This document shows, in pieces, positions 3,334-16,051 of a stretch of DNA of 39,400 nucleotides. The stretch spans positions 1-39,400 of the forward strand of contig MHEU01000016.1 in assembly GCA_001805245.1 (NCBI GenBank), in the 5' to 3' direction. Origin of the DNA: Nitrospirae bacterium RIFCSPLOWO2_02_FULL_62_14. Its GTDB lineage: Bacteria > Nitrospirota > Nitrospiria > Nitrospirales > Nitrospiraceae. How positions within the stretch are numbered: the first letter of the stretch is position 1; every line of letters starts with the position of its first letter. A program made the translations under genes and the position numbers. A model generated the notes under the pieces. It was not told where the DNA came from. It made no database searches and saw only the letters and a list, made by a program, of their open reading frames with translations.

Positions 3334-3423
3334 CGCGGGACTCGCGTGACGCGCGAGAAATGCGAGACTCGGAAGAATCCTTCATGCCAGTCGCGCTTTC
3401 GTCCGAGTCGCGCGAGTCTCGCA
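3334..3423. repeat. 9-nt degenerate repeat array, inverted arms (CGCGAGAAA/ACT family)
   Basis: The spacer between pycA and pycB holds five left-arm units of exactly 9 nt (3334-3378: CGCGGGACT, CGCGTGACG, CGCGAGAAA, TGCGAGACT, CGGAAGAAT) and four inverted right-arm units (3388-3423). On the opposite strand these read TGCGAGACT, CGCGCGACT, CGGACGAAA, GCGCGACTG. Eleven bases (3361-3371 and 3413-3423) are perfectly complementary across the arms. The right arm ends 2 nt from the pycA stop codon. A related array lies at 34860-34930. Function unknown. Confidence 0.8.
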
Positions 3424-4844: not shown

Positions 4845-4944
4845 CGTGGAGTTCCGTTTCGCCTGACTTTCCCGAAATGCCCGTGAAAAGTCAGCGTAAG
4901 TTAGCATAGGGACTCAACGGCTGTCGAGGGAAAGGGTGGGGAAG

Positions 4945-5022
4945 ACGTAAGGCGTGAGACGCGAGGTGTGAGGAGTCAGACGAAGCAGGGCACCCCTACG
5001 CCTGACCCCTCACCCCTGACGG
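4945..5022. repeat. 7-nt degenerate repeat array, inverted arms (RCGTGAG family)
   Basis: Left arm 4945-4979 has five 7-nt units: ACGTAAG, GCGTGAG, ACGCGAG, GTGTGAG, GAGTCAG. Right arm 4995-5022 has four units in inverse orientation; read on the minus strand they are CCGTCAG, GGGTGAG, GGGTCAG, GCGTAGG. The array ends 5 nt from the stop codon of the IPT/TIG gene and lies upstream of pycA. The same family occurs at 34533-34567, directly before another gene. Confidence 0.8.
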
Positions 5023-7084: not shown

Positions 7085-7177
7085 ATTTTCCCATTTGGTG
7101 ATTTGATCATTGATTGAATGGACGGACCGTCTGCCGGGCTCCAATCGACAAATCAGCAAATGGGTAAATCACGCAAT
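7085..7177. repeat. 8-nt degenerate repeat array, inverted arms (ATTTGGTG family)
   Basis: Left arm 7085-7124: ATTTTCCC, ATTTGGTG, ATTTGATC, ATTGATTG, AATGGACG. Right arm 7141-7177 is inverted; on the minus strand its units read ATTGCGTG, ATTTACCC, ATTTGCTG, ATTTGTCG, ATTGG. The centre is a short GC-rich segment. The array fills the spacer between two small genes and ends 11 nt before the ATG at 7189. The same family occurs at 15986-16051. Confidence 0.8.
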
Positions 7178-7188
7178 TGCTTCTTACC

Positions 7189-7392
7189 ATGATCTACTGG
7201 CTCCACATCGCCCGCCAAAACGATCGGACAATGCTTCACAAGGATCGCTGCCCGGCGGTTCCTTCCCACAATATAACCACGGATTTCTGGGAAGGCGGGT
7301 GGTTCGAATATCCGGACAAGGAACGGGCCCTGGCGGCCATGGAACAGTCCGGCACCAACGATCACAGGAAGTGCCCCCTCTGTAAGCCCTAA
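7189..7392 (+). CDS. Small cysteine-containing protein of unknown function
   Basis: A 67-residue open frame starting MIYWLHIARQNDRTMLHKDR and ending KCPLCKP. The internal ALAAMEQSG...HRKCPLC segment resembles small Nitrospira-type proteins remembered as having a C-terminal CxxC, but this could not be checked. No ribosome-binding site precedes the ATG; instead the 8-nt repeat array ends 11 nt upstream. A TTG at 7177 is an alternative start. The minus strand of the same stretch is also open (7153-7365), so the call is moderate. Confidence 0.5.
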   Translation: MIYWLHIARQNDRTMLHKDRCPAVPSHNITTDFWEGGWFEYPDKERALAAMEQSGTNDHRKCPLCKP

Positions 7393-7396
7393 TGAC

Positions 7397-7464
7397 GTTG
7401 CGTCGGTTTGTCAGTTTAGCCCGTTGTGCCAGTTAACGGGCTCAACCGGCTGAACAGGCCAAAC
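7397..7464. repeat. 9-nt degenerate repeat array, inverted arms (GTTTAGCCN family)
   Basis: Left-arm units: GTTGCGTCG, GTTTGTCA (8 nt), GTTTAGCCC, GTTGTGCCA, GTTAACGGG (7397-7440). They run into inverted right-arm units GGGCTCAAC, CGGCTGAAC, AGGCCAAAC (7438-7464). Eight bases later is the EamA start codon. An array of the same family and arrangement occupies 14512-14617 with exactly the same 8-nt gap to the next start. Confidence 0.8.
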
Positions 7465-7472
7465 AGATTCAT

Positions 7473-8324
7473 ATGCCCCGTCTTGCGCTCATTCTCACCA
7501 CCCTGATCTGGGGTGCGACGTTTCCAGCCACCAAGGCCGCCCTCGCGCAGATTCCCCCCTTTTCGTTCATGTGCCTGCGGTTTCTGCTCGGCGCGATCCT
7601 CGCCGTCGGCGTGTATCTGGCCGTCGGCGGCCGGCTGCGCGTCGACCGCGAACTCCTGCGCATGAGCGGCATTGCGACGATCTTTCTCTTTCTGGGCTAT
7701 GTCACCCAGACGATCGGCCTGCAGACGACCACCGCATCCAACTCGGCGTTCATCACGGTGCTGTACGTGATTTTCGTGCCGGTCTTTCTGCGGCGGTTTC
7801 AGGGGCGCACATGGTTCTCGGCGGGGCTGGCGCTGACGGGCCTCTGGTTCCTGGTCACGCCCTCGTTGGAGATGAACGTCGGCGACCTCTGGACGCTGGC
7901 CTGCGCCGTCGCCTTCGCCGCGCACATCGCCTGCATGGAGTCCTTTTCGCGCCGGGGAGAAGCCGCGCTGTTTTTTCTGTGGCAGATGATACTCGTGACC
8001 CTGCTGCTCGGACCGGCCATGCTGATCGAGGGGCCGACATGGGGGCAGGTGGCGCCGACCGGCATTTTATTGGTCGGGTTGGGGGTGACCGGCGGGCTGG
8101 CCACCGGCGCCTTTGCGGTGCAGGTCTGGGTGCAGCGGGTCCTGCCGGCGCAGCAGGTGGCGCTGATCTTCTCCCTGGAGCCGGCTTTTGCCGCGTGGCT
8201 GTCCTGGTATTTTCTCGGCGAGCAGATGAGCGCGCAGGGCTGGATCGGCAGCGCGTTGATCCTGGCGGGAGTCATCATCGGCGGACTGGCGCCGGGCGAG
8301 AGGGGTAACGGGGTAGAGGGGTAG
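7473..8324 (+). CDS. EamA-family (DMT) transporter
   Basis: A 283-residue inner-membrane protein with about ten hydrophobic segments in two EamA repeats. The first repeat starts MPRLALILTTLIWGATFPATKAAL and the second has the typical LWQM...TWGQVAPTGILLVGLGVTGGLATGAFAVQVWVQR and FSLEPAFAAWLSWYFLGEQ motif. Members export amino acids or other metabolites; the substrate cannot be inferred. The start is 8 nt after a 9-nt repeat array and has no clear Shine-Dalgarno sequence. The stop codon lies inside an 8-nt repeat array. Confidence 0.9.
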   Translation: MPRLALILTTLIWGATFPATKAALAQIPPFSFMCLRFLLGAILAVGVYLAVGGRLRVDRELLRMSGIATIFLFLGYVTQTIGLQTTTASNSAFITVLYVIFVPVFLRRFQGRTWFSAGLALTGLWFLVTPSLEMNVGDLWTLACAVAFAAHIACMESFSRRGEAALFFLWQMILVTLLLGPAMLIEGPTWGQVAPTGILLVGLGVTGGLATGAFAVQVWVQRVLPAQQVALIFSLEPAFAAWLSWYFLGEQMSAQGWIGSALILAGVIIGGLAPGERGNGVEG

Positions 8325-8350
8325 AGGGGTAGAGGGGCAGGAGGAGAGTG
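8303..8350 (+). repeat. 8-nt repeat array spanning EamA stop and next start (GGGTAGAG)
   Basis: Units: GGGTAACG, GGGTAGAG three times (perfect, 8311-8334), GGGCAGGA, GGAGAGTG. The EamA stop TAG (8322-8324) is inside the third unit. The last units supply the AGGAGG-like ribosome-binding site and the GTG start of the next gene. No inverted arm was found. Confidence 0.8.
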
Positions 8351-11916: not shown

Positions 11917-11921
11917 ATTTT

Positions 11922-12012
11922 AGCGAGCAGCAAGTAGCTGGCAGCTAGCAGCCAGATTAGGGCTCAATAATATCGCCATTAGCTATTTGCTATCAGCTAT
12001 TGGCTATTCGCT
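11922..12012. repeat. 7-nt degenerate repeat array, inverted arms (AGCNNAT family)
   Basis: Left arm 11922-11956: AGCGAGC, AGCAAGT, AGCTGGC, AGCTAGC, AGCCAGA. Right arm 11978-12012: ATTAGCT, ATTTGCT, ATCAGCT, ATTGGCT, ATTCGCT, which is the inverse orientation. Five units per arm around a 21-nt centre. The array starts 5 nt after the hemE stop and ends 11 nt before the hemH start. The same family is found at 31985-32052. Confidence 0.85.
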
Positions 12013-12023
12013 TTGGTGAGAAG

Positions 12024-12976: not shown

Positions 12977-14461
12977 GTGGCAGCACAACCCACACAACCA
13001 GCCAGACACGTCGCCATCGTCGGCGGCGGCATCGCCGGTCTGGCGGCGGCCTGCAGCCTCTATGAGCAGGCGGCAAGCGCGGGCCTGCCGCTGACCTGCA
13101 CGCTGATCGAGGCAGGCCGTGATTGGGGTGGCAAGATCCTTACGCATCACGTGGGCGATCTGACGATCGAAGCCGGTCCCGATTCGTTTCTCTCGCAAAA
13201 ACCCTGGGGTCTCGAACTCTGCAACAAGCTGGGGCTCTCCGGCCGGCTCATCAATACGAACGAGCATCAGAAAAAAACCTTCATCTATTCGCGCGGACGC
13301 CTGCGCGAACTGCCGGAAGGGCTGGTCGTCATCGTGCCGACCAAGCTGGGGCCGTTTTTGAGCAGCGGACTGGTTTCCTGGCCCGGCATCATGCGGATGG
13401 GGATGGACCTGGTGTTGCCGGCCCGGCGCGCGGGCGGCGACGAGTCGCTGGCGTCTTTTTTCTCGCGACGGCTCGGGCGCGAAGCCTTCGAACGGGTCGT
13501 CGAGCCGTTGATGGCTGGAATCTACGCGGGCGATGCCACGCAGATCAGCCTCCGCGCAACCTTCCCGCGCTTTCTCGACCTGGAACAGAAACACGGCAGC
13601 CTGATCCGCGGGATGCTGGCCAGCCGGTCGGCCGTCCAGGCGGCATCAGCCCGGCCGGCCAGCGCGCTGGGGGGCCGCACCATGTTCGTGACGCTCCGGG
13701 ACGGGTTGGCGGAATTGGTTCAGGCGTTGCTGACGCGGCTCGCGACCGCAGGCGCGAAGCTCATGACGCAGCAATCGGTGGCGGCGATCCGGGTGCGTCA
13801 AACCGGCACGACCCATCCGATCGGATGGACCTACGACCTGACGCTGGAGAACGGTCCGGTGATTTCCGCCGATGCGGTGGTGCTGGCGACGCCGGCCTTC
13901 GTATCCGCCGATCTGGTCCGGCCGTTGAGCCCGATTGCGTCGGAATTGCTCGGCGCGATTCCCTATGCGTCCACGGCCACGGTGTCGCTGGCCTATGCGG
14001 CCGGGACGCTCGGCGCCGAAGTCGACGGTTTCGGATTCGTGGTGCCGCGGGTGGAGCGGCGCGACCTGCTGGCGGCGACGTGGACGTCCTTGAAGTGGCC
14101 GCACCGCGCGCCGGCCTCGCAAACGCTCGTGCGCTGCTACCTCGGCGGGATCGGGCGAGAAGCCGTTCTGCAGGAGGACGACCGCGCGCTCGTCCGGCGC
14201 GTACGCGACGAATTGAAATACATCGCCGGCGTGACCGGCGAGCCGGCCTATGCCGAGGTGAACCGGTGGGAGCGCGGCATGCCGCAATACACGCTCGGGC
14301 ACTTGGATCGTTTGGAAGCCATCCAGCGGTCGCTCGATCGGTATCCCAGCCTCGTGCTGGCCGGGGCGGCGTATCGGGGCATCGGCATTCCGGACTGCAT
14401 CAAGGATGGAAGCGACGCAGCCGCGTCCGTGATCCGATTCTTGATGGGAACCCGCGCATGA
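12977..14461 (+). CDS. hemG: Protoporphyrinogen oxidase (HemG/HemY type, FAD-dependent)
   Basis: A 494-residue flavoprotein. The N-terminus HVAIVGGGIAGLAAACSLYEQ binds FAD, followed by EAGPDSFLSQKPWGLEL, a hallmark of oxygen-dependent protoporphyrinogen oxidases, and a C-terminal FAD segment RGIGIPDCIKDGSDAAASV. It oxidises protoporphyrinogen IX (or coproporphyrinogen III in the coproporphyrin-dependent branch). The GTG start at 12977 lies 8 nt after hemH; the ribosome-binding site is weak, consistent with coupling. No hemQ is present in the window, so the pathway branch cannot be decided here. Confidence 0.94.
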   Translation: MAAQPTQPARHVAIVGGGIAGLAAACSLYEQAASAGLPLTCTLIEAGRDWGGKILTHHVGDLTIEAGPDSFLSQKPWGLELCNKLGLSGRLINTNEHQKKTFIYSRGRLRELPEGLVVIVPTKLGPFLSSGLVSWPGIMRMGMDLVLPARRAGGDESLASFFSRRLGREAFERVVEPLMAGIYAGDATQISLRATFPRFLDLEQKHGSLIRGMLASRSAVQAASARPASALGGRTMFVTLRDGLAELVQALLTRLATAGAKLMTQQSVAAIRVRQTGTTHPIGWTYDLTLENGPVISADAVVLATPAFVSADLVRPLSPIASELLGAIPYASTATVSLAYAAGTLGAEVDGFGFVVPRVERRDLLAATWTSLKWPHRAPASQTLVRCYLGGIGREAVLQEDDRALVRRVRDELKYIAGVTGEPAYAEVNRWERGMPQYTLGHLDRLEAIQRSLDRYPSLVLAGAAYRGIGIPDCIKDGSDAAASVIRFLMGTRA

Positions 14462-14511
14462 TTATCCATGTTGCGTGACTCACATGGGACTCAATATAGT
14501 GAGGAACGTTT

Positions 14512-14617
14512 GTTAGACCCGTTAGGCCTGTTTAGCCGGTTAGGTCCGTTAACGGATGAAACAGGCTCAACCGGCTGAACGGGCTGAACAGGCTCAACTG
14601 ACTCAACGGGCACAACA
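14512..14617. repeat. 9-nt degenerate repeat array, inverted arms (GTTTAGCCN family)
   Basis: Left arm: GTTAGACCC, GTTAGGCCT, GTTTAGCCG, GTTAGGTCC, GTTAACGG (14512-14555). Right arm 14564-14617: GGCTCAACC, GGCTGAACG, GGCTGAACA, GGCTCAACT, GACTCAACG, GGCACAACA. Six clean 9-nt units on the right are inverse to the left units. The array ends 8 nt before the ATG at 14626, the same gap as in the related array at 7397-7464. Confidence 0.87.
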
Positions 14618-14625
14618 TCCGAGTT

Positions 14626-15033
14626 ATGGCCAGTCCGTTTACCATCCTGAACGTCAGCGGTCCGTACCGGGAACCCCGCGAAGCGGTGTTCTCGTACGAC
14701 TATTCGATCCAGCGGGTCACCTGGCCGACTCCATGCGGTGTGCGTGTCAAGGTCGCTGTGGCCGAAGAGTTGGACTATTTCAAGGCCAAAGTCCTTGAAA
14801 TCCAGGGCGGCAGTCCCGGCCAGCAGTTGAGGATCTCGCAAATACTCACGCAACGCATCGCGGATCATAAGCTGCAGATCGCGAATGAAGAAAATATGCT
14901 CAACGAACGCCTGGATGTCATGATTGCGCCGTTCACTGGAGCGCTTGCGCATCTGTTTTCAAAGTTGGAGGCGCGAATGAACGAATCAAAGGCCGCGTTA
15001 CGACAGGAAATTCACGAAAAAGTGAAACTTTGA
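14626..15033 (+). CDS. Protein of unknown function, 135 residues
   Basis: Begins MASPFTILNVSGPYREPREAV. The C-terminal half is a long amphipathic helix or coiled coil (RISQILTQRIADHKLQIANEENMLNERLDVMIAPF...LEARMNESKAALRQEI). No signal peptide or known domain was recognised. The start has no Shine-Dalgarno sequence and directly follows the 9-nt repeat array. Codon use is like that of nearby genes except for an AT-richer 3' end. Confidence 0.6.
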   Translation: MASPFTILNVSGPYREPREAVFSYDYSIQRVTWPTPCGVRVKVAVAEELDYFKAKVLEIQGGSPGQQLRISQILTQRIADHKLQIANEENMLNERLDVMIAPFTGALAHLFSKLEARMNESKAALRQEIHEKVKL

Positions 15034-15985: not shown

Positions 15986-16051
15986 ATTTGGTGATCTGGT
16001 GATTTCGTAATTTAGCGAAATTCACTTCGTCCAATCACCATATCGCCAAAT
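15986..16051. repeat. 8-nt degenerate repeat array, inverted arms (ATTTGGTG family)
   Basis: Left arm 15986-16025: ATTTGGTG, ATCTGGTG, ATTTCGTA, ATTTAGCG, AAATTCAC. Right arm 16028-16051: CGTCCAAT, CACCATAT, CGCCAAAT, which are the inverse of ATTGGACG, ATATGGTG, ATTTGGCG. The array fills the whole mazG to membrane-protein spacer; the mazG stop starts at its last base. Same family as 7085-7177. Confidence 0.85.

Follow-up and report, generated by a model that had tools for sequence, protein, structure and literature searches.

The short tandemly repeated repetitive (STRR) sequences of cyanobacteria are intergenic arrays of heptamer direct repeats that occur in many copies. The 23S rRNA intervening sequence (IVS) of Coxiella combines an S23p open reading frame (ORF) with tandem heptamers preceding that ORF and with terminal inverted repeats, and 23S IVSs with S23p are regarded as selfish or possibly mobile (PMC4990558). 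In the REPIN/RAYT systems of P. fluorescens and others, every group of repeats is paired with a gene of its own, flanked by those repeats, and RAYTs are thought to spread or keep the REPINs (PMC3116915). Tandem 7–8-nt units are also found in the 'global regulator binding sites' of classes 1–4 of Geobacter metallireducens, which form opposite-strand pairs of units such as GTTGCTYN (PMC2700814). In marine Beggiatoaceae, most TAACTGA repeats immediately precede a start codon, and ribosome-binding sites are few (PMC4679880). Finally, the Avd protein of diversity-generating retroelements (DGRs) has a four-helix-bundle fold homologous to PF05635 (PMC10053308). PF05635, the 23S rRNA intervening-sequence protein (IVP), alias S23p, is itself a four-helix bundle with a solved relative, 2GSC.

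The window analyzed here, a 39,400-nt stretch of the genome of Nitrospirae bacterium RIFCSPLOWO2_02_FULL_62_14, contains two convergent inverted arrays of the 9-nt unit AACNGGCYN, at 7397–7464 and 14512–14616 (Table 1). At both sites, reverse units (GTTNRGCCN) lead to the centre GTTAAC, from which forward AACNGGCYN units continue. Two-unit matches numbered 13 in the window compared with 0.04 expected from dinucleotide shuffles, and 254 genome-wide compared with one for the reversed pattern. The first-pass annotation had described one 9-nt family in an inverted layout at both loci, and the symmetry around GTTAAC and the excess of matches confirm that description. A higher-order repeat of 27 nt is present at 14560–14617. 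A search of the window for known structured RNAs (Rfam, gathering thresholds) returned nothing but one tRNA. No T-run following a G+C-rich stem was found in 14400–14700, so the arrays are not intrinsic terminators of the usual kind, and this candidate was ruled out.

The genes downstream of the two arrays had been noted to lack a Shine-Dalgarno sequence, which holds for both: each is a real gene whose ATG (7473 and 14626) is backed by orthologues aligning from residue 1. The EamA gene has matches in 26 of 41 genomes, and the 135-aa protein, for which no Pfam match was found, in 34 of 41. The layout of stop codon, array and start codon in the spacer between the ORF at 7110 and the EamA gene is found in relatives too.

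Table 1 Coordinates of the arrays and neighboring genes in the window.
Feature	Position	Strand	Remarks
Inverted array, 9-nt GTCTCGCNN family	3335–3422		Same family flanks one IVP gene in this genome
Weak inverted array, GTGAGNC-type	4935–5020		RNA fold z −1.63, not significant
ORF upstream of 7397 array	7110–7385	+	Stop 11 nt before array
7397 array, left arm	7397–7434	−	Reverse units; two good at 7414–7431, outer ones degenerate
7397 array, right arm	7435–7464	+	Three AACNGGCYN units; ATG 7473 8 nt on
EamA-type transporter gene	7473–8324	+	PF00892; downstream of 7397 array; no Shine-Dalgarno
Direct 8-nt array GGGGTAGA, EamA 3′ end	8299–8337	+	Same unit flanks another IVP gene
Weaker inverted array, AGCTATTNG-type, between URO-D and next gene	11920–12016		RNA fold z −1.23, not significant
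Flavin amine oxidoreductase gene	12977–14461	+	PF01593; stop 50 nt before 14512 array
14512 array, left arm	14512–14550	−	Four reverse units (GTTNRGCCN family), outermost imperfect
14512 array, symmetry centre GTTAAC	14548–14553		From sequence
14512 array, right arm	14551–14616	+	AACNGGCYN units, 9-nt register; ATG 14626 9 nt on
Conserved 135-aa protein gene	14626–15033	+	Downstream of 14512 array; no Shine-Dalgarno
Inverted array, GGTGATNT-type	15987–16050		RNA fold z −5.17

Both arrays had been reported to stop exactly 8 nt before an ATG. When the array end was defined by the last AAC of a unit, in one register for both arrays, the gaps were 8 nt (7464 to ATG 7473) and 9 nt (14616 to ATG 14626), the earlier end at 14617 having included one extra base. 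Plotting many copies, which the first-pass annotation had called for as a check on a preferred distance, yielded no single fixed distance: the 33 starts located ≤60 nt from an array had gaps of 3–51 nt (median 17 nt), measured outside the window from the starts of a home-made gene finder without curated start sites, and a fixed 8-nt gap was thereby rejected. The shortest gaps were 3, 5, 6, 7, 7, 8, 8, 8, 9, 9 and 12 nt, with a soft mode at 5–9 nt (9/33). Gaps between arrays and stop codons were equally tight (median 8 nt), indicating that an array tends to take up the whole of a short spacer between a stop and a start. None of the 11 starts with a gap of ≤12 nt had a Shine-Dalgarno sequence, compared with 57% of all genes; at these starts, the array stands in its place. 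A start without this sequence is ordinary in the genome, where it is seen in 43% of genes. Among EamA copies from this genome and orthologues, 21 of 23 lack it, nearly all of them without an AACNGGCYN repeat. Orthologues in relatives use the same start codon behind quite different upstream sequence, and some arrays lie between convergent genes without a nearby start codon. Of the suggestion that the array was copied with a defined position, one part stands, in that copies of one dispersed family are involved, often abutting starts, while the distance itself ranges over 3–51 nt among arrays ≤60 nt from a start, and other arrays lie at greater distances. The two clusters are not a special ribosome-start signal; they are part of ~40 scattered hairpin-forming repeats.

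Every unit of the AACNGGCYN family retains AAC and GGC, whereas its positions 4, 8 and 9 are free and vary independently. No covariation of these positions was detected between the arms at any offset, which argues that exact pairing is not the target of selection; selection for a perfect hairpin as the driver of the arrays was rejected on this basis. Adjacent units agree at position 4 in 40 of 180 cases compared with 51.5 expected (~1% tail), as if identical neighbors were avoided, and recent slippage was rejected because adjacent units are no more alike than chance. As judged from sequence, the pattern of variation speaks for a putative recognition of individual units rather than of perfect stems.

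The family is dispersed over the genome. AACNGGCYN occurs at 41 loci in the 719 kb of this genome's stretches that underlie all locus counts and were selected partly for array hits. It is absent or nearly absent from 60 related genomes, and two genomes of the same genus have one match each. Within the genome, blast matches between AACNGGCYN arrays mostly stop at the array edges, except in one small set of repeats of ~180 nt that enclose an array. Four copies of this repeat with ~92% identity were found (L031:11880–12061, L032:16407–16584, L039:7871–8050 and L043:10846–11020); its termini are CCCACATTATTC...GAATAATGTGGG with the AACNGGCYN array within, and 47 nt from its end are found by themselves at many further loci. 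The repeat looks like a MITE enclosing an array. At two other loci (L037:676–750 and L036:7256–7303), AACNGGCYN units are followed by AACCAGAYR units in one array with a shared 9-nt register, as if one family had replaced or recombined with the other in place.

At least eight families of dispersed inverted arrays with 7–9-nt units are present in the genome. Orthologous spacers in relatives often contain inverted short-period arrays of another unit, mostly of 7 nt. The units observed by eye before EamA in relatives include ACTCAGC, ATCACGC, GAATGAG, ACTCAAC, GTCACCC and others, and the spacer occupied here by the array at 11920–12016 holds different families in relatives. No clean empty site was seen at orthologous positions, because those of relatives are often filled by other families, and no transposition event or target-site duplication came to light. 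Across nine syntenic stretches, occupancy of orthologous spacers was weakly correlated, with an odds ratio of 2.2 (p = 0.08), from few spacers, many having dropped out through the limits of gene calling, and from pairs that are not independent. Arrays were scarcer in divergent spacers, though not significantly so (3/54 vs 36/250, p = 0.11).

Each of the eight IVP genes of the genome is enclosed by inverted short-period arrays, which represent seven unit families as assigned by eye. Two AACNGGCYN loci, both on contig C55, have an IVP ORF between the arms, and these two IVP copies are closely related; the window's own arrays are without an IVP gene, as are dozens of AACNGGCYN arrays in other spacers. 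For 24 of 29 IVP genes from this and nearby genomes, the eight included, flank complementarity exceeded the 97.5th percentile of controls (250 control genes; Mann–Whitney p = 2e−16). In a wider IVP set from several phyla, z exceeded 3 in 76 of 103 cases, with periods of 7 (52), 8 (11) and 9 nt (8); about a quarter of the sampled IVP genes were without strong inverted flanks by the automatic score. IVP genes were present in 10 of 12 genomes from other phyla that had been picked for AACNGGC arrays, a Tychonema cyanobacterium among them, and none was found in 14 control genomes. Elsewhere in this genome, the motifs of the IVP flanks occur at 41, 17, 21, 10, 7, 2 and 6 loci, IVP loci counted, compared with 0 for the reversed controls, and each of the seven families has gene-less arrays, two of them at few loci. 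For the AACCAGAYR family, no IVP copy was found in this genome, and the IVP of a relative has such flanks. Across 16 genomes, IVP copy number correlated with array density (rho 0.73, p = 0.0014, uncorrected for kinship).

Several further features of IVP loci were observed. In four cases (L053:2886–3281, L052:13678–14082, L276 and L318), the IVP reading frame enters the downstream array, which yields a lysine/arginine-rich tail, e.g., RAKRTQRAKRAKPA. Two Deltaproteobacterial/Desulfobacterales MAGs (G065 and G068) have 19 PF05635 matches each, more than the other genomes searched. In the orthologous spacer before a thioesterase-like gene of several relatives (L266, L275, L279, L284, L285 and L291), IVP is kept and the surrounding array sequence differs from genome to genome. 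In a Tychonema cyanobacterium (L334), an IVP gene is located between long inverted arrays of the heptamer GGTCATT, an arrangement that would place the heptamer arrays of cyanobacteria in the same class.

An IVP tree was built from 98 rows; it has few columns and many open forks. Unit period clusters on it, requiring 11 changes compared with a mean of 16.5 after shuffling, and 0 of 200 shuffles gave so low a number. Most members of the well-supported clade with the motif MKIxRFEDLxCW (SH-aLRT 98) are accompanied by AAC-type 9-nt units, namely AACNGGCYN in this genome and in two genomes of Desulfobacterota (L317 and L323), AACCAGAYR in other relatives, and, in still other genomes, AACTCAATA and AACCATCTC. 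Different units accompany some members of the clade. From these sequence comparisons, each IVP lineage appears to go with its own 7–9-nt unit.

The arrays, their dispersal, the IVP genes between their arms, the match of clade and unit, and the gene-less copies of each IVP-flank family were observed directly, and from them we infer transposition of the arrays. We propose a dispersed hairpin element linked to IVP, of which the window arrays would be copies without the gene, a reading to which we assign a probability of roughly 0.6. The full element would consist of an array arm, a gene for the PF05635 four-helix bundle and an inverted array arm. The window arrays would be miniature copies from which the gene is absent, and their AACNGGCYN unit would belong with the two IVPs on contig C55. 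The IVP, or a process that it assists, may recognize the unit and spread or maintain the arrays in trans, by analogy with RAYTs and REPINs. PF05635 is not known to act as a nuclease or recombinase. The spacers between a stop and a start would be the sites that tolerate arrays; how far an array lies from the start codon would be a by-product of the end-to-end filling of short spacers, and a clearance of at least a few nucleotides would be left for initiation. Alternatively, the hairpins could be independent of the element, with IVP genes inserting into some of them, and the gene-less arrays would then not derive from it.

These data also bear on other explanations of the arrays. As RNA, both arrays fold far more stably than shuffled sequences (z −4.35 for the 14512 array and z −4.60 for the 7397 array), as would be expected if they were RNA hairpins at gene 3′ ends that are selected for their structure, in mRNA stabilization or non-canonical termination, with the spread of IVP being incidental. 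The closeness to stop codons (median 8 nt), the non-significant deficit in divergent spacers (3/54 vs 36/250, p = 0.11) and the presence of hairpins of other sequence in the same spacers of relatives fit this explanation as well. We nevertheless consider it unlikely, since the T-run is absent and the arms do not covary, and since it accounts neither for the IVP gene in the loop nor for a unit shared across the genome. A DNA- or RNA-binding regulator, perhaps IVP itself, could have the arrays as its binding sites. The constant AAC and GGC, the independence of positions 4, 8 and 9, the low agreement of neighbors at position 4 (40/180 vs 51.5) and the tracking of IVP clade by unit length would all be in keeping with such sites, and the Geobacter 'global regulator binding sites' are built alike (PMC2700814). 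The arrays, however, lie mostly after stop codons, where they fill spacers without any promoter-like placement, and their families turn over at the same site between relatives; a regulatory role of this kind therefore seems improbable to us.

That the arrays act in cis on translation initiation from a set distance to the start codon is very improbable, given that the gaps are broad and that stop codons are crowded equally. Arrays also occur between convergent genes, and the same genes in relatives start without the repeat, EamA lacking a Shine-Dalgarno sequence in 21 of 23 copies regardless; the idea that the array serves as the initiation region, raised in the first-pass annotation, is not supported for these reasons, despite the soft mode of 5–9 nt (9/33), the 0/11 Shine-Dalgarno sequences at gaps of ≤12 nt and the published parallel of the Beggiatoaceae TAACTGA repeats (PMC4679880). 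Plain local microsatellite expansion, through slippage and template switching, would produce tandem units and could account for the 27-nt higher-order repeat at 14560–14617, but it would hardly leave neighbors no more alike than units taken from other arrays. Such an expansion would, moreover, give each site a locus-specific unit, whereas one unit is found here at dozens of unlinked loci, and AACNGGCYN is also present in other phyla with related IVP. We attach almost no credence to this origin.

The reading of the window arrays as gene-less copies of an IVP-linked element has wider implications. The two arrays that were first noticed in the window are one family of a much larger phenomenon, and the overall pattern suggests a type of mobile or self-spreading DNA that has no earlier description. 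In the open-access literature, no report was found that links PF05635 with intergenic arrays; PF05635 (IVP/S23p) proteins and short-period intergenic arrays, two long-standing puzzles, are tied together here in several phyla. The data suggest that 23S rRNA intervening sequences, heptamer arrays and 'regulator sites' of a similar kind share a single explanation. In a broader and tentative form, which we hold to be somewhat more probably wrong than right, the intergenic short-period inverted arrays of bacterial phyla, cyanobacterial heptamer arrays among them, and the 23S rRNA intervening sequences would constitute one class of mobile or self-spreading hairpins with PF05635 as its only protein, each lineage recognizing its own 7–9-nt unit and spreading gene-less arrays in trans without a known transposase or reverse transcriptase. 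The findings also raise the prospect that DNA may spread with no known transposase involved, and the match between protein lineage and repeat unit is open to bench testing. Many spacers of the genome would have been shaped by such elements, which bears on the annotation of promoters, terminators and ribosome sites.

Among the known systems, the STRR and TAACTGA repeats resemble the arrays described here in being intergenic and present in many copies. They differ in that the arrays here have convergent arms and a unit of 9 nt in which three positions are free, those of relatives being mostly of period 7. The Geobacter sites likewise consist of tandem short units in opposite-strand pairs; in the portion of that source considered, they are read as regulator sites and no link to IVP is mentioned (PMC2700814). 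A DGR was rejected as a candidate: no match to reverse transcriptase (PF00078) was found in this genome, whose assembly is 95% complete, and without reverse transcriptase there is no DGR here. A RAYT-driven repeat was rejected as well, a search of the same 95%-complete assembly for RAYT (PF01797) having returned 0 matches with positive search controls. In population structure, REPIN/RAYT is nevertheless the nearest system, as both involve dispersed extragenic inverted hairpin repeats, with a gene flanked by its own group of repeats; the partner here is the PF05635 four-helix bundle, and a short-period array whose units have free positions takes the place of a single REP. In anatomy, the nearest system is the 23S rRNA IVS of Coxiella, Leptospira and Brucella, an element that RNase III excises from the transcript and which has in common with the elements described here a PF05635 ORF in the loop of an inverted repeat. 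Unlike the IVS, however, the elements in this genome are located between protein genes rather than in rRNA helices, their arms are arrays of 7–9-nt units, and their gene-less copies are numerous and dispersed.
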